Source of the DNA: Novosphingobium sp. AAP83
GTDB lineage: Bacteria; Pseudomonadota; Alphaproteobacteria; Sphingomonadales; Sphingomonadaceae
Length of the DNA stretch: 64,000 bases
Assembly (NCBI RefSeq): GCF_001295795.1
Contig: NZ_LJHY01000022.1
Coordinates: 372,001 to 436,000, forward strand
Direction: 5' to 3'
Both the position numbers and the translations under genes were made by a program. The notes beneath the pieces are model-generated. The model made no database searches and was not told the origin of the DNA. It saw nothing but the letters and a program-made list of their open reading frames with translations. Position 1 is the first letter of the stretch; each line of letters begins with the position of its first letter. Of the stretch, positions 33,873 to 50,538 are shown piece after piece.

Positions 33873-34224
33873 CAGCCAGCCCAGCGCCAACACCGCGCTG
33901 ATCGACGGCGTCCGCAAATTCGCGATGGACGTGCGCGAACTCGACATCGACCTGATCGACTTCATTAATCCTTTCGGCGAAGCCTATTCCATACTTGCCA
34001 AAACCATGAGCGAAGAAAGCTTGAAGCAGGTCGCGGCAGCAATTGCCGCCAAGCGCACCAGCCTGACGCCCGAGGAGGCGAAAGAACTGGCCGTGCGCGC
34101 CGTGCGCTTCAAGAAAGAACGCGGGCGTTTGCCGTCGATCAGTTCGACCGATGCCTGGGAAAAGCGAATGGCCGAAGGCGCAGCCGCATTCGTGCGCTTC
34201 AAGGATGAGGGCCGCTATGAGTGA
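33799..34224 (+). pseudogene. Fusion remnant: methyltransferase fragment joined to a helicase C-terminal end
   Basis: This frame starts at GTG. Its first 17 residues include DIPLTNFRGI, which fits the methyltransferase region that should follow motif I. After that the sequence switches to a helical region (LDIDLIDFINPFGEAYSILA, then KELAVRAVRFKKERGRLPSI and TDAWEKRMAEG) that resembles the C-terminal tail of DEAD/DEAH helicases encoded beside such methyltransferases. A deletion that removed the rest of the methyltransferase and most of the helicase would produce exactly this join. It overlaps the GIY-YIG gene by 8 nt. The helicase assignment is from memory of gene neighbourhoods and is moderately sure. 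Confidence 0.6.
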
Positions 34225-35428
34225 CCTCGACCTTGACGACCTTCGCAGCGAGCTGGCCGAATTTGCCCAGCCGGAAAAGAAGATCGGGCGTTCTCCACGC
34301 GACGAGCGCATCATCGCTGGATTTGAAGAGATCCAGCGATTTGTGGAGCAGCATGGCCGCGCCCCGCTGCACGGCGAAGACCGGGACATCTTTGAGCGCC
34401 TATATGCCGTGCGCCTAGACCGGCTTCGTGCTCAGGATGATTGCCGCGAGTTGCTGGCATCGCTGGACCATCAAGGGCTGTTGGCCGGAGATGGTTCCTT
34501 CGCCGCTGCAACAGTTGAGACGATGGATGAAGACGAGCTTTTGGCCGTGTTGGAAGGCATAGCCGGCGATGCTGACATTACCCAGCTCCGCCATGTCCGG
34601 CCAAGCGCAGAAAAGCGCGCCGCCGAGGAAATTGCCAACCGCGAGCCATGCCCGGACTTTGACAACTTCAAGCCCCTTTTCGCGCAGGTCCAGCGTGATC
34701 TTGATTCCGGTGTTCGGTCCACCCGCCGGTTCGTGAAGGACGCGGGTTTTCTGAAAGCGGACATCACGGACGGGCAGTTCTTCATTCTGGGCGGCCAGAC
34801 CGCCTATGTCGCCGAAGTCGGGGAGCCCATCAAAGCCCCGAATGGCGAATTGGATGCACGCTTACGCCTGATCTACTCCAACGGCACCGAGAGCAATCTG
34901 CTGCGCCGCTCACTCCAGCGGGCATTGTACAAGGATGAAGCAGGGCGACGGATAACGGAGCCAACCGCCGGACCCCTATTTGCCAGTGAAAACGACGATG
35001 ACGATCAGGCCAGCGGCACCATATATGTGCTGCGCAGCAAGTCGGATCATCCCCTCGTCGCGGCCAATCGGGAAGTCTTGCACAAGATCGGCGTGACCGG
35101 CGGAGACGTGGTGCGGCGCGTCGCCAATGCCAAACTGGACCCGACATTCCTTATGGCCGACGTCGAAATCGTCGCAACCTACACCCTGTTCAATATCAAC
35201 CGGACCAAGTTGGAAAACCTGATCCACCGCATATTCGATCCTGCGCGGCTCGAAATCGAGGTCAAGGACCGTTTCGGCAATCCGGTGGTCCCGCGTGAAT
35301 GGTTTCTCGTGCCGCGTTTCGTCGTGGATGATGCGGTGGAGAAGATCAGGAGCGGCGCGATCACACATTATCTATACGACCCGAAATCGGCCCGACTCAT
35401 ATCGCACGATGATAACGGGAATGTTTAG
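34217..35428 (+). CDS. GIY-YIG nuclease family protein (T5orf172-like)
   Basis: This 403-residue protein starts at ATG 34217. The N-terminal half is helical, with a helicase-associated-like segment (IQRFVEQHGRAPLHGEDRDI). The C-terminal part from about residue 268 has a GIY-YIG-type core: GTIYVLRSKSD, LHKIGVTGGDVVRRVA, and ENLIHRIFDPARLEIEV with a candidate catalytic Glu. Such proteins accompany a methyltransferase and a helicase in restriction-type defence loci, where they are likely the nuclease. Here both partners are broken while this gene looks intact. Confidence 0.8.
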   Translation: MSDLDLDDLRSELAEFAQPEKKIGRSPRDERIIAGFEEIQRFVEQHGRAPLHGEDRDIFERLYAVRLDRLRAQDDCRELLASLDHQGLLAGDGSFAAATVETMDEDELLAVLEGIAGDADITQLRHVRPSAEKRAAEEIANREPCPDFDNFKPLFAQVQRDLDSGVRSTRRFVKDAGFLKADITDGQFFILGGQTAYVAEVGEPIKAPNGELDARLRLIYSNGTESNLLRRSLQRALYKDEAGRRITEPTAGPLFASENDDDDQASGTIYVLRSKSDHPLVAANREVLHKIGVTGGDVVRRVANAKLDPTFLMADVEIVATYTLFNINRTKLENLIHRIFDPARLEIEVKDRFGNPVVPREWFLVPRFVVDDAVEKIRSGAITHYLYDPKSARLISHDDNGNV

Positions 35429-35431
35429 TCG

Positions 35432-37516
35432 GTGAGCGACCTCGAAGCTGTATTCAATCTGAATAATTTGCGGCGAGCTTACCAGTGGGTGATGTCCAAC
35501 CCAGACGCGCAGTATAAGTCTTACTTTCGCGATTCATACGATGCATTCGCAATCGCGTCGGACACCCATCTCAAATGGATACGCCAAGAAGGATTGAAGG
35601 AGCGTTATCAGGTTTCCCATGCGTCCAAACTCCTCCTGCCAAAGCCATCTGGCACATTACGCCCGATCACTCTCCTGACGGTTGAAGATCAAATCGTCTA
35701 TCAGGCATGTGTCAACCTGATTGCGGACATACTCAAACGAAAGACCCGTCAGCGTTACGAAAAGCGCGTTTTTGCCCATCTGTATGCTGGGAAATCGTCA
35801 CCGTTCTTTTACTTTCAGTGGCAGCGTAGTTATCGAAAGTTCGGCCGTAGGATCGAGCAGGCATTTAACGACGGATACCACTACGTCGCCAATTTCGACT
35901 TGGCCGCATTTTACGATTCTATCGACCATCATGTGCTGCGGCATTTTCTTGCCACCCTCAGCATAGATGAGGACACGGTCGATCTCCTGCTTCGATGCCT
36001 GAAAGTTTGGACATCGAGCACTTGGAGTAACGGGCAGGCGAATATTTATCACGAGCATGGAATCCCGCAGGGACCCCTTGCGTCCGGAATGCTCTCCGAA
36101 GCAGTGTTGCAGCATATTGACGCTGCGGGCGAGCGGGGTTGAAAAACCGTCTATTTTCGCTATGTCGATGACATCAAGATTCTTGCAAAAAGCGAAGATG
36201 AACTGCCGCGCAAGCTCATTGACCTCGACATTGCTTCGAAAGAGATCGGTCTTTTCCCGCAGACGGCCAAAATCAATATCCGGAAAATTGCCGATCCGCG
36301 TGACGAGGTAAAATCGATCAGTCGTCCGCCCGAGCCTTCCATCAAGCCGACCGTAAATCAGAAGAAACTCGTCTCCCGGCTTCTCGAATTGACTCGCAAC
36401 GGCAGAGTTCCGCCGGAAAGCGTGACGCGTTTCAAATATCTTTTAGCACACGCCACGCCAACCCACAGGCTCAATTCCCGCTTGATGAAGGTGCTACATC
36501 GGCATCCTGAACACGCGCCCGGAATTTGCCGATACATCGCCTCCTATCCCAAGATTCCCGACGTTCTTGCCAAAGAGATCGAAAGCTTCGTTTCGATCAA
36601 CGAGTTGTATCATGCCGTTAACGCGCAATTGCTCCGATCATGCCTGGACAGATGCCCTGCCGTTGTCACGGCTTCGTTGGGAAAGATTTGTGCGGATCGA
36701 CTGCTGCGCCCCAAGCCCGGCGTCATTCAGTTGCAGCCGAGCTACAAAGAAGCCTTGATCGGCTGGGCTTTGAGCGCAAATGCGATAAACTTCGCGGAAT
36801 TCGATGGCATTGTGTCCAACGAACCAGATTGGTGGGTCAAAAAATGTGCTTTCCGTGAACTGACGCCCGGCCTATTTGGTGCAGCGACTTATGCAGACTT
36901 CCTTAATCGCCAAATGCGGGACGCCGAATCTGAGGTGGCGCGCATTGCCGCCGGTAGATTAATTGACGGAAATCTAAAGTTGGCAAGGCCATATGGTGAT
37001 GTTGAAACGACTGCCAAGCATAGCTTGAAAGCCGCGAGGATCATCCGCTCAGTTGGCCAGCCGGGTGGCCGTATCAACGAGATCCTAGCGTATATCCTGA
37101 AACGGCAACAGACTGCCTATGATTGGAAGGCGTTCTTCGGTGCCGCGCACGGCCATGCCGAGCGTATGTCGATCTTCCTCAAGAGGAATCGCGAGTCGAA
37201 CATCGATGCCTTTTTGGTGCAGCTCGATAGCTGGTGCGACGAGGTTTTTTCCCATCTTTATACGCGCCTGAAGCCGAACCGACAGCGCCCCAACTACGGG
37301 GCTGCCTTGAGGGACCAAACGCTACTAGCTCACTTGCCCCAACTAATGCCCTGTTTTCTAAGGCTTCATGATCTGCGACTGGATTCCACTACGGCACATC
37401 CACGTAGTCAAAGGTCTGGCACCGCTACGCGTAGATTAAAACATAGGGATTTCCGTGCGATACGAAATGACCTAATCCATGCGTTTGACGAGTTAGAAGC
37501 CAACATCGTCCCTTAA
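35432..37516 (+). pseudogene. AbiA-like reverse transcriptase with C-terminal HEPN-like motif, interrupted by one in-frame TGA
   Basis: The frame is continuous over 695 codons except for TGA at 36140-36142 (codon 237). Before it lie RT motif A (FDLAAFYDSID, near residue 154) and motif B (GIPQGPLASG, near residue 210). Right after it, in the same frame, comes motif C (YFRYVDDI, YVDD at 244-247). A region of about 400 residues of helical repeat character follows (LVSRLLELTRNGRVPPESV onwards), and the end carries RNDLIH, an R-x4-H HEPN nuclease-like motif. RT, helical repeats, then HEPN is the layout of AbiA-type phage-defence RTs. As read, translation would stop before the catalytic aspartates, so it is either a fresh nonsense mutant, a readthrough gene or a sequencing error. 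The start is GTG 35432. Confidence 0.8.
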
Positions 37517-37669: not shown

Positions 37670-38911
37670 TTAGGCTTTTCCTTGTAATGTTAAAGTGCGC
37701 TCACGAACAACATTACAAACAGACTTAACACCGACCAGTATCGGAAATTTTTCCGAGAACTTGCTATCAATCGCGGTAAGAACCGCATCACCCAATTGCC
37801 GAACCCGCGCTCGCACGAACGGCGCACCGAGCTGCGCATCGGCGGCGAACCGATCCCAATGGCGGGCTTCTATATCGTCAAGCACGGCCTTGCCCCCAAT
37901 CTTCATCGCCAGCTTTGGCGACAATTCTGGGTAGAGCACAGTGGAAAGCAGATCATAGAGCGGTGCGAGCGTGATTGCGCCTTGCTTGTGCAACAGGCTG
38001 AAATTCTTGGCATGAGCATCGGCGTTGCCAATGATCAGGTTGAAGATGGCAGCGTCGAGCAGCCGCAGAATGTCGCGCGGCGGGCGGGTTGCCGCGCGGC
38101 GCAGCAGGGCAAAGCAATCTGGGAAGTTAGGCCCACCCTCACTGGCATATTTGCGGTGCGACGGGACGCCGAGGGCTTGTGCAAAATCCTCCTGATGGAG
38201 CCGTGCCACTTCACCCTCTGGACCGATGGCGCGGTCATAGCGGGTGATCAGCAGGAAAGACCGGCCTTGGACTGTGCGCATTTCGACCGGGGCAACATCC
38301 AGCCCAACCGCGCGCGCCAGCGACATGCAGAAATATTCGTTTTCCGTGGTGCCCGCGAACCGGGCAATGGGCGGCTTGAGGATATGGCTGGTTGGCTGTC
38401 CCGGTGCTGGCAGGGCGATCTGACCGTCGATCACCAGCACCGGCAGCTTGGATTGTGCGCCTGCCAGTGAAAGCCGCAGCCCATCTTCGCCCGCCAGCAT
38501 CGGGCGCATCGGCAGATGGTCGAGCAGTCGCACGAGATCGTCATCATTGAGCAATTTCGGGGCGGCGGCGCTGGGCGGCGTAGGTAATTCGCCTTCCGGT
38601 AAAAGTGTCAGCGCGCCCGCAACTTCACCGCCCAGATATTCGAGCAGCCTGAATTCATTGTCAGCCGAGACGCCGAGCGCGCGGGCAATCGCGGTCCGCT
38701 GGCCTTCCTCTGGCAAGATGCCCCCGAAAAAGGGCTGGCAGGCACGGCGGTTGAACGGTTCGGCTTGTTTGGGCAGGGAAAAGGACAAGGCGGGTAAAGT
38801 CGCATCCGCCAGCCACGCCGCGTCATAGGCGAATTGCGTGTCGCCATCGGGGCCGAGGTAGAGACAGCCGGTGACGCGCCCGTCCCACCAGACTGTCAGC
38901 CGGTTGGTCAT
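37670..38911 (-). CDS. hipA: HipA-family serine/threonine kinase toxin
   Basis: This is a 413-residue kinase of the HipA family. It has an N-terminal HipA subdomain (LTVWWDGRVTGCLYL), the nucleotide-binding loop LSLAGAQSKLPVLV, the catalytic loop IIGNADAHAKNFSLL and the metal-binding LAPLYDLLST. HipA kinases phosphorylate targets such as glutamyl-tRNA synthetase and induce dormancy. The start at 38911 overlaps the hipB stop by 4 nt. The C terminus ends in a short, poorly conserved tail. Confidence 0.92.
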   Translation of the reverse strand: MTNRLTVWWDGRVTGCLYLGPDGDTQFAYDAAWLADATLPALSFSLPKQAEPFNRRACQPFFGGILPEEGQRTAIARALGVSADNEFRLLEYLGGEVAGALTLLPEGELPTPPSAAAPKLLNDDDLVRLLDHLPMRPMLAGEDGLRLSLAGAQSKLPVLVIDGQIALPAPGQPTSHILKPPIARFAGTTENEYFCMSLARAVGLDVAPVEMRTVQGRSFLLITRYDRAIGPEGEVARLHQEDFAQALGVPSHRKYASEGGPNFPDCFALLRRAATRPPRDILRLLDAAIFNLIIGNADAHAKNFSLLHKQGAITLAPLYDLLSTVLYPELSPKLAMKIGGKAVLDDIEARHWDRFAADAQLGAPFVRARVRQLGDAVLTAIDSKFSEKFPILVGVKSVCNVVRERTLTLQGKA

Positions 38912-39120
38912 GCGCCGCCCGTAGGTGGCGTTATGGTAATGTCGCACCCAAGTGTCGTGATGACGCGCAGCACCTTTTCAAGCTGAAGCGTTGGCTTGCC
39001 AGCTTCAAGATCGACGATGAAGCGAATGCCAACGCCACTCACTGCCGCAAGCTCTGCCTGCTTCAGTTTCTGCGCTTTGCGTTCGCTGCGCACGATGAGT
39101 CCAAGTGAGGTGCTGTCCAT
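38908..39120 (-). CDS. hipB: HipB antitoxin
   Basis: This 70-residue XRE protein (LGLIVRSERKAQKLKQAELA, then VGIRFIVDLEAGKPTLQLEK) is typical of HipB, which binds HipA and represses the operon. ATG 39120 is chosen; an in-frame TTG at 39162 would add 14 residues but would place one of the two operator-like repeats inside the gene. The overlapping ATGA with hipA indicates coupled translation. Confidence 0.9.
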   Translation of the reverse strand: MDSTSLGLIVRSERKAQKLKQAELAAVSGVGIRFIVDLEAGKPTLQLEKVLRVITTLGCDITITPPTGGA

Positions 39121-39186: not shown

Positions 39187-39420
39187 TTAAGAGGATTTGT
39201 GGCTAACTGATCTGCGATATTCCCGTTCAGGAAAATAATCTCACCTTTGTAACGAGCGCCGCCAACGGCGCACCCTTCCCCTGTTTCGCGGAAGAAAGAG
39301 GCGCTGCCTCTCTCTCCCAGCAAGGTGCCGCTTTGGGGCCGTGGCTCACTGCGTTGCGCCCGCACCACCCCCGGCACCGGACCTTGCCCCCACTCTCTCC
39401 GCCCCTTGCCGGGTCGGCAG

Positions 39421-39441
39421 GGGTCATGCGCGGCATGACCC
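39421..39441 (+). repeat. Hairpin in the ardC leader
   Basis: Nine-base arms GGGTCATGC and GCATGACCC pair around GCG. The element lies 30 bp upstream of the ardC ATG, before its ribosome binding site, and could be a repressor site or an mRNA structure. Confidence 0.5.
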
Positions 39442-39470
39442 GCTGCGCGGATTGGAAGGGAGCAAGTACC

Positions 39471-40373
39471 ATGAACAAGCAAGACCCGCATAGCCGGATC
39501 ACCGACCGCATTCTGGCCGAACTGGAACAAGGCACCCGTCCATGGCTGAAGCCTTGGAGTGGTGGCGATTTAGCGACAAGCGGCAGAGTGCGGCCACTAC
39601 GCGCAACCGGCCAGCCCTATCGCGGGATCAATGTTCTACTCTTGTGGATTGAGGCGCAGGCGTCCGGCTTTGTCAGCCCGTCATGGATGACCTACCGGCA
39701 GGCGCAGGCATTGGGCGCACAGGTCCGCAAGGGTGAAAGCGGCGCAGCGATTGTCTATTACGGCGACAGCAACAAGACCGTTCGCGACGAAACCAGCGGC
39801 GAAGACAAGGCTCAGTCGTTCCGCTTTCTGAAAACCTACACCGTTTTCAATGTGGCGCAGATCGACGGACTTCCCGAGCGCTTCCATATCATACCCGAAC
39901 CAGCGCCCGAGGCGGAACGCATCGAGACCGCCGAGGCATTCTTTGCCAGCATTCCTGCAACCGTGAACCATGGCGGCGACAAGGCTTATTACATGCCATC
40001 AGCCGACCGCATTCAGCTTCCACCCTTTGCGGCTTTCCATGACGCCCAGAGCTACTACGCGACCCGAGGCCATGAAACCTTGCACTGGACAAGCCACAAG
40101 AGCCGCCTTGATCGCAGCTTTGGCCGCGAGAAATGGGGCGATGAGGGATACGCCCGCGAAGAATTGTGTGCGGAACTTGGTGCAGCGTTCCTAGCCGCCG
40201 ACCTTGGCATTGCGCTTGAGCCGCGCCCTGATCATGCCAGCTATATCGCGAGCTGGATAAAGGTCCTTCAGAACGACTCCCGCGCCATTGTCCAGGCTGC
40301 TGCCCATGCCGAGCGCGGCGTAGCCTACCTGCACCAATTGGCTCGCACCGAGGACGTGAAAGAGGCGGCATAG
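39471..40373 (+). CDS. ardC: ArdC-type antirestriction protein
   Basis: This 300-residue protein has an N-terminal ssDNA-binding ArdC-N domain (ITDRILAELEQGTRPWLKPW, then NVLLLWIEAQASGFVSPSWM and ARKG-like region QVRKGESGAAIVYYG) and a C-terminal zincin-like domain with HETLH (H201, E202, H205) and ELCAELGAAFLA. ArdC proteins enter recipients with conjugating DNA and protect it from restriction. The ATG at 39471 follows AAGGGAG; a longer frame upstream is not supported. Its presence fits a mobilizable element. Confidence 0.92.
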   Translation: MNKQDPHSRITDRILAELEQGTRPWLKPWSGGDLATSGRVRPLRATGQPYRGINVLLLWIEAQASGFVSPSWMTYRQAQALGAQVRKGESGAAIVYYGDSNKTVRDETSGEDKAQSFRFLKTYTVFNVAQIDGLPERFHIIPEPAPEAERIETAEAFFASIPATVNHGGDKAYYMPSADRIQLPPFAAFHDAQSYYATRGHETLHWTSHKSRLDRSFGREKWGDEGYAREELCAELGAAFLAADLGIALEPRPDHASYIASWIKVLQNDSRAIVQAAAHAERGVAYLHQLARTEDVKEAA

Positions 40374-42879: not shown

Positions 42880-45324
42880 CTAGGCAACTTCTTTGTGCAA
42901 ATCGCTGTTTTTAAATACTTTCGCCAACTCAGCAATCAAGTATGCCGGTTTAAGCGGTTTTTGCAGGACAATATCGGCATTTTTGTTTGGCACCATAACT
43001 GTCTGCCCGTCTACAGCAGGTGCTAGCAAGAGAAAAGTTACAACGTCATACAATTTTGACTTGGCCAGAACTTGCTCAAGCTGTTCTGATCTACTTTCCT
43101 CCTCGGGCATGGCGGAAGTGTCGATAATCATCACGCCAACATTGCCAAGCTGCAACAGACCCTCGGCCTGTTCGAGCGTCCTTGCGCCGATAACACCGTC
43201 CACATGTGGCGCGATCACCGCCTTCACTTTGGCCTGCCGCAGTTCGTTATAATCAACCATAAGCGTCAGGCGCCGGGTGGCCGGTGCGGCGACTTCCGCC
43301 ATCTCCGTCACGGCTGCAACATCTGGCGCTCCGGCAACGGGCAAAACAATGCGGAAGGTCGATCCCGCGCCATGCTGGCTCGTCGCACTGATCTCGCCGC
43401 CCAAGGCCGTCAGAATGTTGCGGCAAATCGAAAGGCCAAGCCCGGTCCCGCCAAAATCGCGCGACATGCCGTTGTTCACCTGATGGAACGGCTCGAAGAT
43501 CAATTGCAATTGATCTGCGGGAATGCCGATACCACTGTCTGTAATGCAGATTTCAAGGTTCTGCGCATCGATCATCACCGCGCGCAGCGATACCTTGCCC
43601 TCAAGGGTGAATTTGATGGCATTGGCCAGCAGATTGAAGACCACCTGCCGCAAGCGCCCGCCGTCGGTGTAGCTGACAGGTGGCACGTCGGCGGCATCCA
43701 GCACCAGTTCGATGCCTTTGCCTTGCGCTTCGCCCTGCCACAACTGGCAGCTTTCCGACAGAATCTTGCCAATATCGCAAGCCTGCTTGTTCACCGTGAT
43801 CTCGCCACCTTCCGCTTTGGCGGTGTCCAGCAAGTCATCGACCAACGCCTGCATCGTCTGCCCGGCACCCAGCACCAGACTGACGCGTTCGCGTGTGTTC
43901 TTGTCGATGCTGTCATCGGCAAGAATGATCTGCGTCATCCCCATAATGCCGTTCAACGGTGTGCGGATTTCATGGCTGGTCATCGCGAGGAAGTCTGTCT
44001 TGGCGCGCAACGCGGTTTCCAGCCGTGCGTTCACATCGGTCAGGATCGTATTGGCATCGCGCACTTCATTGCGGCTTTTCCGAATGGAAAGGAACGCCAG
44101 ACCGGTCACCACAATCAACGCCAAGGCAGCGATCAACAGCCCGGTGGCAATCGTGCCCCTCTGGCGCGCAATCTCGACATCGCGCTGCAATTGCCCCTGT
44201 TTCAGTTCGGCAATGCGCGTTTTCTGGTTGGCCGAGGTAAACTGGGCTTCCAGCAGTTGTGAACTGGTGGACGTGATCAAGTTGCGCACTTCCCCGTCCA
44301 AACGCTGAAACGCTTGCAGGTGGCGCAGCGCCCGTTCTGGCTGGCCCATGCGAGAATAGAAATCCGCCGCGATTTTGTGCAATTCGCGATAGGAAAGATC
44401 GGTTCGCTCCAGATCAATCCCGGCAAACAACCGGTCCAGCAGTGCCGCGCCTTCTTGATCCCGGCCCTGCTGGATCGCAATCATCGCTTGCACGCCATAA
44501 ACAAACGGCAGCCAATCGCGCGCTTCGGGGTTGCGCCCCAGCCGTTCGGCAAGCTTGGCATTTTGCGCTGCTTTGCCCAACTGGCCCATTTCAATCTGCA
44601 CTTGCGCCAGATTGCTTAATACCCGCATTTCCAGCATCGGACTTTCAAGCGCTCGCGCATTGGCAAGCGCCGCACTATAAGCCTTTTCCGCTTCCGCCCA
44701 GCGCCGCAAAGCGCGATAGGCCTCACCGCGAGTGTTATTGGCGCTCAGAGCAATGCCGGGATCGTCATTGTAGATTTCCTGCGCCTGATCGAAATAGGAC
44801 AGCATGCGTTGATAATCGCCTGCTTCCCAATAGATCTGGCCGATATCTTGGAGTGCCAGTGCTTGAGATCGCTTCTCGCCAGCCTTGCTGAAAATGCGGT
44901 GCGCCTCAAGATAGCTCATCAGCGCTTCAGATGCTTTACCCATGATACCTGCCACAGCACCTTGTGACCGCATGATATCGCCGTGGAGCTTCGTTTCGGG
45001 AGCTGCGGCTTTGACCAGCCCGATTGCTTCCCCCAGACCGTCTTGCGCAGCCTCCAGCCGGTTCAAGCCGATGTTGGACTCAATTTTGAGCCATAGCGCC
45101 GTCGCTCGGGCGATTTGCTGCTCTTTGCCGGTAAACTTGTCTGTGATTGCAAGTGCTTTGTCCGAATCCCGCAGCGCTGCGGCGGGGTCTGCCATCATAT
45201 CAGCTTTTGCACCCGCAATCGCCTTGTCAAAGGCGGCTGTATCAGACGACGCAGCCCACGCGAACGTGGGCTGCGAACACAGATACAAAAGGGCTATCAA
45301 CACAACGTGGAGAAAGTGGCGCAT
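42880..45324 (-). CDS. TPR-containing hybrid sensor histidine kinase
   Basis: This is an 814-residue protein with a signal peptide (LHVVLIALLYLCSQPTFAWA), a periplasmic TPR array over about residues 40-350, one TM near residue 395-415 (GLLIAALALIVVTGLAFLSI), then HisKA with the H-box FLAMTSHEIRTPLNGIMGM (His near 450) and HATPase (NLLANAIKFT, ITDSGIGIP, FGGTGLGLSICRNIL). The C-terminal region of about 120 residues is a divergent receiver: the Asp in VMIIDTSAMPEE and the Lys in VLQKPLKP are present, but the acidic pair reads VDYNE. TPRs suggest it senses a protein or peptide partner. It neighbours a secreted protease autotransporter gene. Confidence 0.92.
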   Translation of the reverse strand: MRHFLHVVLIALLYLCSQPTFAWAASSDTAAFDKAIAGAKADMMADPAAALRDSDKALAITDKFTGKEQQIARATALWLKIESNIGLNRLEAAQDGLGEAIGLVKAAAPETKLHGDIMRSQGAVAGIMGKASEALMSYLEAHRIFSKAGEKRSQALALQDIGQIYWEAGDYQRMLSYFDQAQEIYNDDPGIALSANNTRGEAYRALRRWAEAEKAYSAALANARALESPMLEMRVLSNLAQVQIEMGQLGKAAQNAKLAERLGRNPEARDWLPFVYGVQAMIAIQQGRDQEGAALLDRLFAGIDLERTDLSYRELHKIAADFYSRMGQPERALRHLQAFQRLDGEVRNLITSTSSQLLEAQFTSANQKTRIAELKQGQLQRDVEIARQRGTIATGLLIAALALIVVTGLAFLSIRKSRNEVRDANTILTDVNARLETALRAKTDFLAMTSHEIRTPLNGIMGMTQIILADDSIDKNTRERVSLVLGAGQTMQALVDDLLDTAKAEGGEITVNKQACDIGKILSESCQLWQGEAQGKGIELVLDAADVPPVSYTDGGRLRQVVFNLLANAIKFTLEGKVSLRAVMIDAQNLEICITDSGIGIPADQLQLIFEPFHQVNNGMSRDFGGTGLGLSICRNILTALGGEISATSQHGAGSTFRIVLPVAGAPDVAAVTEMAEVAAPATRRLTLMVDYNELRQAKVKAVIAPHVDGVIGARTLEQAEGLLQLGNVGVMIIDTSAMPEEESRSEQLEQVLAKSKLYDVVTFLLLAPAVDGQTVMVPNKNADIVLQKPLKPAYLIAELAKVFKNSDLHKEVA

Positions 45325-45413: not shown

Positions 45414-48400
45414 TCAGAAGCGCGTTCTAAACTGGCCACCCACTGTCCACCGTGCAATATCCTGGCGTACGTTGCGGGTTTCCATACTGCTGAAGATCGC
45501 AAGGTTGGTCTTCCCGTCAGCCATCGAAGCACCATAGTGCGCTTCGGCGCGGATGCGGCGGCGGGCGGGATCGGCGATGTCAAAGCGCTGCGTAATAGCC
45601 CCGCGCTCACCCGTTTCACGATCTACCACCCCGATCGAGGTGAATTCGACCTGGCCTGCTTCCACTTGTAGCGGCTGTGCGACCGTAAAGCGCAGATTGT
45701 CGTTCGACCCCAGCAGATTGGATTTGGCAAAGCCCACTTGCCATGCGGTGCTGGTCATCTTGGCCAACCGGAAGCTGGCGTTGCGATCAGAGCTTGTGCG
45801 GGCAACCGTGGCCGATCCAAAAACCTGCAAGGTATCACCGATCATTGTATCGGATGACAGAGTGGCGCTGCGCGATACCGTGCCATTGCCAAAGTCATCC
45901 GACGAAAGCGAACGAACACCCAGCATCGCGCGTGCTTCATGCAATTGCGTAAGTGCGATGTTGACATTGGTCCGCAGCCCGAACGAGCGTTCAAACCGGA
46001 CGTTCAGCGCCGTGGCATTATAATCCCCAAGCAAACGCTGCTGCTGGAACAGGTCGCTTGACGCTGGCGTGTTGCGGAAATCATCTTCAATATCGCGCCG
46101 GTTGTTGGTCACACCAAAGTTGATTCGCAGATTTGGCGCAACTTTCACCCGCGCGGCCATATGGGCATCGCCCGAAGCAAAGCCGAGCAGTGGGTCATTA
46201 CCGCCAGTCAACGGATTGAAATCCGATGAAAGCTGCATTGCGCCATTGCCTGCGATTGACAGCGCGCCGTCGCCTGAACCCGCCGCAAACGAAGCCACAC
46301 CTTCAGGTGCCGTAATTTCGAACGACGACGCAAAACCGGGCTGCAAACCGAACCGCGTTTCACGGGTCATGAACCGTCCCTTCATCGCATAGCTCCAGCC
46401 GTTGCCGCTCTCGCCAATACCCGCTTTGCCATTGTCGGTCAGGCTGGCAAACCGTGGCTTGCTTGGCATCAAGCCATAGCCCCCTTCGCGGATACCTGCA
46501 TCGCCGCTCACCCAGGACATGAACAGATCATACATGTATGTCTGGAACGCCTGCCCGTTCACCGATTGATCAAACAACCGGGTCGACAGCGGGATAAGGA
46601 AGTCACGCTCGGATTCATCCAGTTCTTCGAATGCGGTGAAGTAAGCCGTACTTCCTGCCCAGCTCGCCTGCACACCTCTGGCAAGCAGGGACTTGGCATT
46701 GACTTCCTTGCCGTTTTTCTTGTTTTTCGAAGCGCCGTCGAAAGAATAGTATTTCAACTTGTTAAAATCGAGCGCGGATTGCGCGGCCTGAATATCCAGA
46801 AGGCCATGGCCATAGACCGGATCAACCCCTGGTGCGCCCAGATCCTGCGCACTTTCAAGGATGATCTTGGCCACATCGCGCGGATACTTTTTCAACCACG
46901 GCCAACGATCCTGGATCAAGGCAATCGCGCCTGAAACCAGCGGAGCCGCAAACGACGTGCCCGACATGCGGGTAACCCCACCCGCTCCGTCCGAAACCAG
47001 CAGCATTTCGCCCGGCGCCACAAGGAAGCGGTTCATCAGCAACCCGCTTTCCTTAAGGTAGTCTGAAGTTATAAACTTGTCATTTTTGGCGTTATAGACT
47101 GCGGTATTCTCGCACTTGCCCGAAACCGTGATGCACGCTGTGCCCGGACGGTTGGAGAATGCGGAAATACGGCCCAACGGATCAACCGATCCAACCACAA
47201 GGAACGTGCTGTCCAGCGCGCCGGTCATGTCGATATTGCTGGTTTGGACTGATCCGTCGTTGCCAGCAGCAATCACATAGATCGTCTTGTCTTTGAAAGT
47301 GCTGATCGACGATTGGGTGAATACATCGCGCCATTCGGATGGCAGGGTAAATCCTTCCACGCCCAGCGACAGGTTGATGACCGAGGCGCCCTTTTTGCCG
47401 ACATGCTCGATCCCGGCGCGGACATCAGCCCAGCTTGCGGTAAGAGTGCTGTCAAAGGGATTGAACGCTGCCACTTTCGCGCGTGGCGCAATGCCCATCA
47501 CACCCCTGCCGTCATGTGAAGCTACGATAAGGCTCCCGACTGCGGCACCGTGGGCATTGTTGACCCCCTCATAGCCGCCTTTGTAAACAACCTTCGAGCG
47601 AACATCGGGGTCGTTATCGGCGAAGAAATCGACCAAGCCAATCACCGCATCGCTACCACCGCCCTGAGCCTGGGTGATTGTGGGCGTCCATTTTACCGCA
47701 TTCATCCAGTGGTCGTAACGGTCCATCCCCGAATAGTTCATGACGGTGTCATACCAGTCGAGCAGGAAGTACTGGCGGTCAAACAGGTCCCAACCAGCCA
47801 GCGTCTTCGGATCGTTGAGCTGAACTTTCCATTTGTTCAGGAACGGCTGCTGGACGGCTGTTTGGAAATCCTTGTTCGTGCTTTGCAGCACTTGGGCTTG
47901 CCACTGGGTCTGGGAAGTTGCCAACATGCCGTTCAGCAAAGACGCCACTTGCGTGTAGTCTCTCGTTTGTTCGGCCAGTGTCCAGGCTGCGGCAATTTGG
48001 CTGCTCGATGGAACGAAACTGTCGGTAAAGGCGCGGATACGGCCCATTTTCGGATCGAGTTCACCAGCAACCGGGCTCAGGTTACCCCAAAATGCGCGGA
48101 TCAGGCCGCGATAAGGATCAATATCGCCTTCGAAAGCACGGATGCGCCCGTACAGCGGGTCGATCCCGCCTTCAAACGCACGGATACGCCCCATGAACGG
48201 GTCAAGGTTGCCCTCAAACGCGCGGATCAAACCTCTCATCGGGTCGACACTGCTGCTGTAGGAACCAACCGGGCCGCCCATCGCGGTTACTGGACGATCC
48301 TCTGTTGCTTGAGCCGTTGCCTGTTCAGCCGCCTGCACACGGGTGCCATCACCTGTTTCAGCCGCCGTCTGTGCCAATACAGATTGCGAAGCAATTAAAG

Positions 48401-48461
48401 CACATCCGGCAAGCGCTATTGCGCTCCCTCCACTCAGCCATTTGCTTGGAACAGTCATCAC
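45414..48461 (-). CDS. S8 subtilisin-like autotransporter with N-terminal RIRAF repeats
   Basis: This 1015-residue protein has a signal peptide (GGSAIALAGCALIASQSVLA), six tandem repeat units at residues 72-148 and a subtilase domain with catalytic D278 (VIGLVDFF), H304 (NNAHGAAVG), oxyanion N401 (AAGNDG) and S503 (SGTSFAAP). A C-terminal region of about 300 residues has alternating hydrophobicity and ends in FRTRF, as expected for an autotransporter beta-barrel. It is therefore probably displayed on or released from the outer membrane. The substrate is unknown. It lies upstream of the TPR hybrid kinase on the same strand (gap 89 bp), which invites a signalling link. Confidence 0.9.
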   Translation of the reverse strand: MMTVPSKWLSGGSAIALAGCALIASQSVLAQTAAETGDGTRVQAAEQATAQATEDRPVTAMGGPVGSYSSSVDPMRGLIRAFEGNLDPFMGRIRAFEGGIDPLYGRIRAFEGDIDPYRGLIRAFWGNLSPVAGELDPKMGRIRAFTDSFVPSSSQIAAAWTLAEQTRDYTQVASLLNGMLATSQTQWQAQVLQSTNKDFQTAVQQPFLNKWKVQLNDPKTLAGWDLFDRQYFLLDWYDTVMNYSGMDRYDHWMNAVKWTPTITQAQGGGSDAVIGLVDFFADNDPDVRSKVVYKGGYEGVNNAHGAAVGSLIVASHDGRGVMGIAPRAKVAAFNPFDSTLTASWADVRAGIEHVGKKGASVINLSLGVEGFTLPSEWRDVFTQSSISTFKDKTIYVIAAGNDGSVQTSNIDMTGALDSTFLVVGSVDPLGRISAFSNRPGTACITVSGKCENTAVYNAKNDKFITSDYLKESGLLMNRFLVAPGEMLLVSDGAGGVTRMSGTSFAAPLVSGAIALIQDRWPWLKKYPRDVAKIILESAQDLGAPGVDPVYGHGLLDIQAAQSALDFNKLKYYSFDGASKNKKNGKEVNAKSLLARGVQASWAGSTAYFTAFEELDESERDFLIPLSTRLFDQSVNGQAFQTYMYDLFMSWVSGDAGIREGGYGLMPSKPRFASLTDNGKAGIGESGNGWSYAMKGRFMTRETRFGLQPGFASSFEITAPEGVASFAAGSGDGALSIAGNGAMQLSSDFNPLTGGNDPLLGFASGDAHMAARVKVAPNLRINFGVTNNRRDIEDDFRNTPASSDLFQQQRLLGDYNATALNVRFERSFGLRTNVNIALTQLHEARAMLGVRSLSSDDFGNGTVSRSATLSSDTMIGDTLQVFGSATVARTSSDRNASFRLAKMTSTAWQVGFAKSNLLGSNDNLRFTVAQPLQVEAGQVEFTSIGVVDRETGERGAITQRFDIADPARRRIRAEAHYGASMADGKTNLAIFSSMETRNVRQDIARWTVGGQFRTRF
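48021..48248 (-). repeat. Coding tandem repeats of a 14-residue unit in the S8 autotransporter
   Basis: Units follow the pattern (V/L/I)DPxxG(R/L)IRAF(E/W)Gx: residues 72-85, 86-99, 100-113, 114-127, a 7-residue partial unit at 128-134, and 135-148. The core IRAF is invariant in the five full units. The DNA repeats are diverged, so the protein motif is under selection. Confidence 0.88.
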
Positions 48462-48685: not shown

Positions 48686-50011
48686 ATGCAAGGCACTAGC
48701 TCCTTACAGTCAATTATAATCGCGGCCCTTATGGGCATGGCGTTAATTGGCGCTTGGGTTATGCTGCAATTTATCAAAAAAACGCGGTTAAACAAAAATA
48801 TAAAGCCCGAAGATGGGCTGCGTCACGCTTATTACCAGATCGATATCAGGCAGCTTGAACGAATCCGCACACTGCTGGGATTATCCGTGGCCAAAGCCGC
48901 TCTGGATTATCTTGCGCAACAAATTCACGAAGTCGCAGCCTCGCCCGTATCAGTTCTGGTCGGGGAAATGTCTTTGCAACTTGTCGTATCGCAAGATGCA
49001 GATGCGCCAATAGATCAAGCCATCGATGCGATCCTGGCGGCACTACCGCAAAGTATAACGGTTTCGGGCATGACATTGGCCGTAACTGTCAAGGCCCGCT
49101 TGCTATTCGATACTGTCAACGACGCCAATAGCCCTACCGAACGCGCCCACCTGACCAGCGGCTTTCTGCAATCCCATGATGGCGTACAAGTGCGGCGCAA
49201 TATTGCCTTGCTCAAAGATTTTTCAGAAGCGTTGGAGCGTGGCAAGCTTACACTTGCCTACCAGCCCAAGCTTGATCTGCGCAGCGATACGATCCCCTCG
49301 GTCGAAGCTTTGTTGCGCTGGACCCGCGATGACGGGAGCGAAACCAACATCGCCGATCTCATTGCACTGCTGGAAGATACCGGCAGCATCGGTCCGCTCA
49401 CGTTCTGGGCACTGCGCCGGGCGATTTGCGACACGACCGCCATGCATGAAGCTGGCTACAAAATCCGCACTTATGTCAATGTTTCCGGCAGCCTGCTTTC
49501 ATCGCCGGATCTTGCCGAATCGATCATTGCTGCCATTGGCAATCATGCCGATAAAGTGGGGATTGAAATCACCGAAACAGCGGTGATTGCCGATCCGGAT
49601 CAGGCTTTGCGCAGTCTCGAATCCATTTCGGCGGCAGGTATCTCGGTTGCCATTGACGATTTCGGTGCCGGGGTGTGTTCTCTGGAATATCTCCAAAGAC
49701 TGCCAGCCAACGAGCTCAAGATCGATCGCAACTTCATTGGCAGCTTAAGCACCAGCCACCGCAATCCTCTCATCGTTAAAGCCACCATCGATCTTGCCCA
49801 CGCGCTTGAAATGAAGGTCATTGCCGAAGGCGTAGAAGACCAGCTCAGCATGGCGCTGCTACGCGTGATGGGCTGTGATATGGTCCAAGGCTATCTGATT
49901 GCACGCCCGATACCTTTGGCAGACTTGCTGAAGTTCCTCGAAAAGCATGGCAGCGCTGACATCACTTTTGCCAAACCGGCCCTGAACTTTAAGGCATCGG
50001 CTAAGCGCTAA
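48686..50011 (+). CDS. EAL-domain cyclic-di-GMP phosphodiesterase
   Basis: This 441-residue protein has an N-terminal TM (SIIIAALMGMALIGAWVML), a linker domain of about 130 residues without GGDEF motifs, and an EAL domain from about residue 180. Catalytic elements are present: VEALLRW near residue 206, VNVSGSLL, IEITETAV, AIDDFGAGVCSLEYL, LKIDRNFI and VIAEGVED. It should hydrolyse c-di-GMP and lower its level. It is divergent from the protease gene. No strong promoter motif is seen in the 224-bp gap. Confidence 0.92.
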   Translation: MQGTSSLQSIIIAALMGMALIGAWVMLQFIKKTRLNKNIKPEDGLRHAYYQIDIRQLERIRTLLGLSVAKAALDYLAQQIHEVAASPVSVLVGEMSLQLVVSQDADAPIDQAIDAILAALPQSITVSGMTLAVTVKARLLFDTVNDANSPTERAHLTSGFLQSHDGVQVRRNIALLKDFSEALERGKLTLAYQPKLDLRSDTIPSVEALLRWTRDDGSETNIADLIALLEDTGSIGPLTFWALRRAICDTTAMHEAGYKIRTYVNVSGSLLSSPDLAESIIAAIGNHADKVGIEITETAVIADPDQALRSLESISAAGISVAIDDFGAGVCSLEYLQRLPANELKIDRNFIGSLSTSHRNPLIVKATIDLAHALEMKVIAEGVEDQLSMALLRVMGCDMVQGYLIARPIPLADLLKFLEKHGSADITFAKPALNFKASAKR

Positions 50012-50124
50012 AGGCCCGCGTTATCGGCAAAGCCGAACCTTGCACGCTTTGGCAAAAGTGTTTTCCTACACGAACCTATATGGTTATTTAAGGGTGCGTC
50101 TCCAACAGGAAGGACGCCCGTCAA

Positions 50125-50538
50125 ATGTCATTTTTTGAAGCCTTGATCTCACCGGTCACCAAAATCCTCGACAAAGTCATCCCCGACAAGGAAGCGCGCG
50201 ACCGCGCCAAGCTTGAACTGCTCAAGCTTGAAGGCACGCAAGAGCTGGAACACTTGCGCACCCGGATGTCGGCCATTGTCGCCGAAGCCCACTCCTCCGA
50301 TCCTTGGACAAGCCGCGCGCGCCCGGGTTTTCTTTATGTGATGTATGCCATGATCCTGTGGGCCTTGCCGATGGGCATCATCGCTGCATTCCGGCCCGAA
50401 GCCGCCCAGTCCATTGCCAGCGGCATCAATGCCTATCTCAATGGCTTGCCCGAACCGCTCTATGCTTTGTTCGGCACCGGCTACCTTGGCTACACCGCCG
50501 CACGCCAGTGGGGCAAGCTCAAAGGCTCGGACCGCTAA
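50125..50538 (+). CDS. Holin family protein (3TM, GTA-type)
   Basis: This 137-residue membrane protein starts FEALISPVTKILDKVIPDKE, has an amphipathic helix (ARDRAKLELLKLEG), the conserved SSDPWTSRARPGFLYVMYA motif and two to three TM segments, ending YTAARQWGKLKG. This is the holin family linked to alphaproteobacterial gene transfer agents. No other GTA gene is in the window, so it is either a detached GTA release gene or a prophage relic kept for another role. Confidence 0.85.
   Translation: MSFFEALISPVTKILDKVIPDKEARDRAKLELLKLEGTQELEHLRTRMSAIVAEAHSSDPWTSRARPGFLYVMYAMILWALPMGIIAAFRPEAAQSIASGINAYLNGLPEPLYALFGTGYLGYTAARQWGKLKGSDR

Follow-up and report, generated by a model that had tools for sequence, protein, structure and literature searches.

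Signalling by linear peptides through tetratricopeptide repeat (TPR) receptors is best known in Firmicutes and their phages. In yeast, identical short peptides are repeated in the precursor of alpha-factor, which is matured by the subtilase-type protease kexin. The heptapeptide ADLPFEF of PapR is bound by a TPR domain in its RRNPPA system, as described in one report (PMC5007282), and another places the RRNPPA receptor in the cytoplasm and, for Bacillales systems, the pheromone gene immediately downstream (PMC9765709). VbrK and VxrA, histidine kinases with a periplasmic TPR-like and PAS-like domain, are linked to the beta-lactam response in a third report (PMC8534201). The locus described here lies within 64,000 nucleotides of Novosphingobium sp. 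AAP83 (contig NZ_LJHY01000022.1, positions 372,001 to 436,000), hereafter the window, and consists of a subtilase gene, which encodes five copies of an IRAF-containing heptapeptide ahead of its protease domain, and an adjoining gene for a membrane sensor with TPRs. Our tentative reading, given slightly less than an even chance, is that these repeats are recognition words held in multiple copies and are ligands of the adjacent TPR sensor, with the subtilase as the likely switch.

Compared with RRNPPA systems (Rap, NprR, PlcR-PapR, PrgX, Rgg and AimR), the locus shares short peptides, putative group-specific ligand types and a TPR domain. A profile of the sensor matched the TPR structures of RapF and Rap105 as well as those of LGN/PINS and kinesin light chain, with designed TPRs and LGN outscoring both Rap proteins. 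LGN and kinesin light chain are peptide binders. In contrast with RRNPPA systems, the TPR domain belongs to a membrane sensor (an N-terminal hydrophobic segment and one transmembrane segment), the words are present in multiple copies inside a protease, and the outputs are HisKA/HATPase or GGDEF-EAL domains as opposed to DNA-binding or Rap-type ones. Judged by its sequences, the system thus resembles RRNPPA in outline and is not a member, both the place of the receptor and the output being different. VbrK and VxrA are likewise histidine kinases that have a TPR-like domain in the periplasm. The present sensor differs from them in its stretch of about 350 residues matching Pfam TPRs, in the protease dedicated to it and in outputs that are sometimes GGDEF-EAL. 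Unlike alpha-factor, precursor and protease are one protein here, and release is putative. PatA and PagA, S8 subtilases by which cyanobactin peptides are matured, were the top-ranked solved folds for the modelled part of the peptidase S8 domain (PatA, Z 18.4, root-mean-square deviation 4.0, 235 residues aligned, 27% identity; PagA, Z 18.3, 24% identity), and 4h6w was the top PDB sequence match. These Z values were tied with those of ordinary subtilisins (17–18), and the NCBIfam PatA/PatG subfamily model gave 46.4 bits against a cut-off of 421.05, indicating general subtilase likeness, not membership. The repeats, moreover, are within the protease, and no gene for a core-peptide precursor was seen at the locus.

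The five copies of IRAF in the window protein begin at residues 79, 93, 107, 121 and 142, in steps of 14, 14, 14 and 21. Identical residues were noted in 31 of 63 pairs spaced 14 apart between residues 71 and 147, a number reached in none of 100,000 shuffles, the maximum of which was 16. The original prediction, made from the window sequence, of five 14-residue units with an invariant IRAF thus holds for the copies and their periodicity and not for even spacing. Its G-I-x-D-P joint was inexact, as the joints read SVDP, NLDP, GIDP, DIDP and (NLSP..)ELDP, i.e., [VLI]-[DS]-P without the x. No tandem repeat was detected in the DNA of the array by Tandem Repeats Finder because codons differ between copies, those for the Ala of IRAF being GCG, GCG, GCT, GCA and GCC, and the array sequence occurs only once in the genome. 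The characterised prodomain or repeat family that the original prediction had named as evidence against itself was sought in Pfam, NCBIfam and the PDB and none was found. Thus, neither the array (no match in Pfam or NCBIfam and none in PDB sequences below E 1) nor the linker domain that follows it (no Pfam match at the cut-off, and a best PDB match of E 0.68 with none below 0.5) could be assigned, a result that leaves a fold possible for either. Similarly, no description of these repeats or of the gene pair was found in the literature searched, which covered few subscription papers and is therefore weak evidence of absence.

The set of related genes, keyed on 60 linker residues, comprised 51 distinct genes, 50 of them readable (L015, truncated at a contig end, was skipped). 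The region before the linker was more periodic than each of 500 shuffles in all 50. Lags of 14 (31 genes) and 7 (16 genes) were most often the best; a lag of 21 was best in one gene, 15 was best in L009 and 36 in L027, although the units of L027 are 14 long by eye. A heptad search in which motif positions 1, 3 and 6 were fixed by choice returned 485 heptads with the common form G-x-I-x-[P/A]-F-[Y/W]; the penultimate residue of the G-x-I-x-x-F core, a position left free in the search, was P in 254 and A in 176 of these. Word types included IRAF, IRTF, IRIF, IRVF, LRAF, YRNIGAF, YGIIRPF, WGSVSPF and YGNINAF as well as YGNIGPF, YGDIDAF with YGDINPF, SGSIDPF, YKNISTF and YGFIIPV (25 copies by the heptad criterion). 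By this comparison, IRAF is one dialect of a wider heptad motif.

Copies of the word within one protein were alike within sharp limits. Of the 12 IRxF-clade proteins, 7 were uniform in every counted copy from position -6 to position 0 (the Phe), and positions -7 and +1 were among the least uniform of the clade (means of 0.11 and 0.16). The fraction of copy pairs in agreement was 0.83 for the x of IRxF (0.39 after shuffling among proteins) and 0.80 for the residue before the I (0.22), neither value being reached in 20,000 shuffles. One match each in L038 and L009 that lies upstream of the array was included in these tests and dropped from the per-position uniformity count. Word changes between close relatives were concerted. 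The proteins of L007 and L008, 85% identical outside the array, contained TGYIRAF seven times and TGFIRAF seven times, respectively, and those of L003 and L005, 91% identical, contained KGRLRAF three times and KGRIRIF three times. Spacer identity was 0.71 for the same slot and 0.35 for other slots of L007 and L008, and 0.86 and 0.36, respectively, for L003 and L005. Since spacers are alike slot by slot, the slots are old and the word has changed in all slots that bear one. The word patterns used for the codon, spacer and, in part, per-position counts name the word and thus favour uniform copies, and slots 2 and 5 of L003, L005 and L030, which have no word, were left uncounted in them.

Codons for the same residue were identical in 0.594 of 6,074 pairs among copies (33 genes, with L027 contributing 3,045 pairs), the expectation from the codon usage of each gene being 0.571. 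In L007 and L008, copies had 0.56 and 0.52 of codons in common, which is less than the 0.71 found between these two orthologs along the gene. Recent conversion or duplication does not explain such words well, and silent-codon divergence, with exceptions given below, argues for selection on the peptide. Whatever the mechanism, concerted change of separate copies together with silent divergence represents clear selection for self-likeness within one protein.

The subtilase gene was regularly accompanied by that of the sensor. Thus, a TPR sensor homolog was present near the subtilase in 37 of 38 loci, comprising the window, the relatives Novosphingobium sp. 32-60-15 (85%) and a Sphingomonadales metagenome-assembled genome (62%), and 35 others. 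In 32 loci it immediately follows the subtilase on the same strand; in L094 it is 875 nucleotides downstream on the other strand, in L100 and L106 it is divergent, and in L101 and L102 it precedes the subtilase on the same strand. It was not found at L111, where the contig ends within the subtilase. Sensor parts aligned from 32 loci were 33–89% identical to that of the window. PF13424 and other TPR families matched the sensor, which has a hydrophobic segment near residues 390–420 and, in most cases, a hydrophobic segment at the N-terminus too. The output behind this sensor is swapped between loci, being HisKA/HATPase in 5 and GGDEF plus EAL in 6 of those scanned (the window and ten others). 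In genus g42, subtilase and sensor were found in the identical 14 of 61 genomes, and G041, G992 and G1031 had two copies of each. In the genus of the window strain, the subtilase was present in 4 and the sensor in 6 of 195 genomes. Four of these six, with sensor matches at E <1e-120, were the genomes with the subtilase, and the other two were G369, with a sensor fragment, and G355, with a divergent lone sensor.

Identity of sensor versus output in single pairs failed to separate word-switched from same-word pairs, and distances over all pairs were therefore used. From the 37 sensors, 34 were included (L106 and L109, with merged frames, were left out, and the sensor of L101 was found later), and word distance was compared with sensor distance as a partial r that allowed for linker, S8 and C-terminal distances, with 2,000 permutations. 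Over all 34 pairs the partial r was 0.27 for consensus words and 0.48 for word profiles, and among the 19 pairs with kinase-type sensors it was 0.57 and 0.47, respectively, with 0 of 2,000 permutations reaching any of these values. Other parts of the kinase-type pairs gave lower values for consensus words and profiles (-0.09 and -0.07 for the sensor's own kinase output, -0.20 and -0.15 for the subtilase C-terminus, and 0.27 and 0.17 for S8), and when 241 subtilase segments of 6 residues and comparable variability served as controls, none reached the word-sensor value of these pairs. Covariation of word and sensor is therefore real support for a link between them in kinase-type pairs, and appears weak or absent in the GGDEF-EAL subset.

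Among the roles first proposed for the repeats, that of a binding module fits this evidence best, as a bounded 7-residue word changes in concert and is linked to a dedicated TPR sensor. A bounded and repeated word, selection on its residues and a dedicated TPR sensor are what would be expected if the sensor reads the word. According to the favoured model, each protein would display several copies of a species-specific 7-residue peptide, the ligand of the neighbouring periplasmic TPR domain; the fused subtilase would be the likely switch, cutting after the Phe of each word, which would either free the peptide or destroy it; and the TPR sensor would relay this state, via histidine kinase or GGDEF-EAL domains, to a phosphorelay or cyclic di-GMP. 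The location of the array and what the output controls are parts of this model that we infer. For its separate steps, the chances that the sensor binds the word seem to us evenly balanced, and cutting out of the word by the subtilase to which it is fused is possible though rather doubtful. Substrates favoured by subtilisins have Phe at P1, a small residue or Pro at P2 and a hydrophobic residue at P4. Ala-Pro-Phe is named as a subtilisin ligand in the title of entry 1bh6, and most heptads end in [P/A]-F. Self-release, though putative, is attractive given the fusion of array and subtilase and the likeness of most word ends to this ligand. The strongest form of the model, in which the protease is its own pheromone precursor and a heptapeptide peculiar to each species, present in several to 25 copies, is cut free and read by the co-inherited periplasmic TPR sensor, which steers a phosphorelay or cyclic di-GMP, is a shade more doubtful than the cutting step.

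If that form were true, the locus would represent peptide communication of a new design in Gram-negative bacteria, word switches between close species would be pherotypes, and peptide signalling through TPR receptors would extend to Gram-negative bacteria. The 34 aligned pairs, among which word switches have occurred repeatedly, would then be available as a natural collection of ligands and their receptors.

Several observations weigh against the favoured model. For the 15 GGDEF-EAL pairs, the word-sensor partial r was only 0.14 for consensus words (260 of 2,000 permutations) and 0.32 for profiles (30 of 2,000), and with consensus words it was exceeded by linker (0.30, 8 of 2,000) and S8 (0.31, 7 of 2,000); without the output term the values were -0.35 and 0.48, and 19 of 255 control segments were as high as the latter. 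With consensus words over all 34 pairs, the sensor was equalled by 12 of 247 such segments, and S8 reached 0.20 (25 of 2,000), though only -0.03 with profiles. Partial Mantel tests such as those used here may be too generous, and in word-switched pairs the sensor was not clearly faster-evolving than the output. Two of the second sensor copies, those of G041 (359 residues, with a stop) and G1031 (378 residues), are short frames, and G355 contained a divergent sensor without the subtilase. Nor is uniformity of the words universal. Thus, the window protein varies at positions -6 and -4 (0.20 and 0.40), as does L002, the x residues of L064 are S, T, S, T, A, S and T, L009 has one odd copy, and genes of the YGDI type mix several words. 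Duplication contributes as well, since the copies of L017 are close in DNA (0.82 as opposed to 0.54), and likewise those of L006, L047, L056 and L057. Finally, the residue preceding the word is K, Q or H in several arrays, which is unusual for a subtilisin P1, so that a clean two-sided cut releasing the heptapeptide is not obvious.

The nearest rival to the favoured model, with which it has most of its evidence in common, is a tether read in place: the array would stay on the protease, and the TPR sensor would read it in the periplasm and report export or cutting, with no diffusible peptide. Gene pairing, words and covariation fit such a tether equally well, as do an N-terminal array beside a periplasmic sensor and the residue before the word, often not a usual subtilisin P1. 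We nevertheless consider it unlikely, as the C-terminal domain has no confirmed barrel and a tether alone leaves the retention of up to 25 copies unexplained. Less likely again is a ladder of substrates or pseudo-substrates acting in cis, in which the words would sit in the active site of the protein that carries them, as propeptide-like inhibitors, or be cleaved there as sites of self-cutting, and would change together to fit its pockets, while the sensor senses only the protease or another cue. The resemblance of I-x-[P/A]-F to the Ala-Pro-Phe ligand, the propeptide position of array and helical linker, and the covariation of S8 with the consensus word (0.20 over all pairs and 0.31 in GGDEF-EAL pairs) are consistent with this ladder. 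However, the S8 domains of L003 and L005 (L086) are 97% identical, yet their words are switched; in kinase-type pairs the signal is stronger in the sensor than in S8 (0.57 versus 0.27 for consensus words and 0.47 versus 0.17 for profiles); and the all-pairs S8 signal is gone with word profiles.

A structural module (beta-solenoid, stalk or sticky aromatic repeat) kept uniform by stacking or composition would agree with a best lag of 7, 14 or 21 in 48 of 50 genes and with sequences rich in aromatic residues and Gly. Stacking predicts neither a bounded 7-residue word beside free spacers nor linkage to and covariation with a sensor, and AlphaFold gave no fold for the array (predicted local distance difference test score, pLDDT, of 21–29), though with just three sequences there. 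The short beta-solenoid suggested at first thus gained no support in what was a weak test, and a structural role seems improbable to us. Neutral concerted evolution, by which gene conversion or unequal crossing-over would keep copies alike, has in its favour that heptad number varies between close relatives (12 and 10 in L060 and L061, 11 and 10 in L022 and L058) and that a few genes have copies similar in DNA. Silent codons among copies are near random overall, however, and in L007 and L008 below the level between orthologs (0.56 and 0.52 versus 0.71), while survival of copy-specific spacers through word switches means that conversion tracts would need to be about 21 bases or less. Neutral processes are thus very improbable as the explanation.

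The protein encoded in the window belongs to peptidase family S8. As the original prediction had it, the protease domain downstream of the repeats is a subtilase, with a PF00082 match in Pfam at E 2.6e-31 (109 bits against a cut-off of 21.8) and subtilase folds at Z 17–18. The Asp/His/Ser triad and the oxyanion Asn are present, D277, H303, N400 (the Asn of AAGN) and S502 (numbered from the ATG) being invariant in 23 of 23 alignment rows. The labels "surface" and "autotransporter" were not confirmed, since the C-terminal domain had no autotransporter match in Pfam and no match by sequence to a solved barrel. Thus, 22 C-terminal domains gave no match to autotransporter families in Pfam, including PF03797, the 12-strand translocator barrel of classical (type Va) autotransporters, and one of them matched Adeno_shaft weakly (E 0.0072); against PDB sequences there was one weak, unrelated match (E 0.0027). 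The predicted model of the C-terminal domain had a pLDDT below 50. The mean pLDDT of the AlphaFold model of the full protein was 28 with three sequences and 37 after addition of 11 distant marine subtilases. Neither run gave a fold for the array or the C-terminal domain; in the second, in which three sequences covered the array, the linker was modelled as a helical bundle (block means of 62–86 over residues 151–240). Fold searches represent S8 only, because nothing beyond the linker and part of S8 was modelled. Promoter- and terminator-like sites in the region were fewer than the shuffled mean.

Table 1. Position of the subtilase, its parts and the associated genes in the window
Feature	Coordinates	Strand	Remarks
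Subtilase open reading frame	45414-48461	-	1015 amino acids; GTG start, then ATG at 48458
Start and signal peptide-like segment of subtilase, residues 1-31	48369..48461	-	Hydrophobic run ending ...ASQSVLAQ
Array of words (five IRAF heptads with their spacers), residues 72-147 approximately	48021..48248	-	No match in Pfam or NCBIfam
Word 1, RGLIRAF	48216..48236	-	
Word 2, MGRIRAF	48174..48194	-	
Word 3, YGRIRAF	48132..48152	-	
Word 4, RGLIRAF	48090..48110	-	
Word 5, MGRIRAF	48027..48047	-	21-residue step before it
Linker domain, family-specific, in propeptide position	47712..48020	-	Predicted helical bundle; pLDDT block means of 62-86
Subtilase S8 domain	46764..47711	-	PF00082 and invariant catalytic columns
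C-terminal domain, fold unproven	45417..46763	-	Last residue Phe; family conservation; alignable with distant marine subtilases
Sensor histidine kinase adjoining subtilase	42880-45324	-	Signal peptide-like hydrophobic start, TPRs, one transmembrane segment (about 390-420), HisKA, HATPase_c
TPR sensor region used for sensor alignment	44143..45192	-	
EAL-domain protein, divergent in window	48686..50011	+	PF00563

The subtilase family has a narrow and patchy distribution among sphingomonads. Homologs of the whole protein were found in 24 of 298 genomes of family f1 (E 1e-30), and a linker query found 15 of 296 genomes at the level of the order and 2 of 289 at that of the class, all of them from f1. 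By genus, the linker was present in 5 of 5 genomes of g46, 6 of 61 of g78, 14 of 61 of g42 and 4 of 195 of the window strain's own genus. Matches to an array query in G387 (antisense) and G416 (a 131-codon frame with a stop, at order level, E 1e-3) were taken as chance. No homolog was found on plasmids at E 1e-20 and no linker homolog on viral contigs, where only distant marine subtilases matched. Those whose N-termini were inspected (L072–L081, from IMG/VR contigs) have S8 in common with the family, as well as a C-terminal domain that can be aligned, and begin directly with the catalytic domain, lacking both array and linker.

In 11 of 18 gene maps a homolog of the EAL gene immediately precedes the subtilase on the same strand, and the order EAL, subtilase, TPR kinase and receiver protein was seen in 8 of 18. 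In G041, contigs C1 and C2 (L142–L145) each start with a TPR sensor and end at or inside a subtilase copy, the assembly having probably been broken by the presence of two copies of the module. A 116-residue fragment of a TPR sensor beside a receiver gene in L138 (G369:C73) is perhaps a decayed module, as a subtilase of the family was not found in G369. Near the EAL gene of the window, and also in L002, is a gene for a holin of the gene-transfer-agent type with three transmembrane segments (50092-50535, + strand; PF11351, E 2.9e-32). Elsewhere in the window, a reverse transcriptase like PADLOC RT_UG19 (35429-37513, + strand) occupies two adjacent frames that match consecutive parts of the model (E 7e-103 and 8e-65), and the gene looks interrupted. 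It is accompanied by genes for a T5orf172/MUG113 protein (34067-35425, + strand), a HipA-like kinase (37673-38977, - strand) and an ArdC-like antirestriction protein (39207-40370, + strand), and the cluster is perhaps a defence or mobile island.

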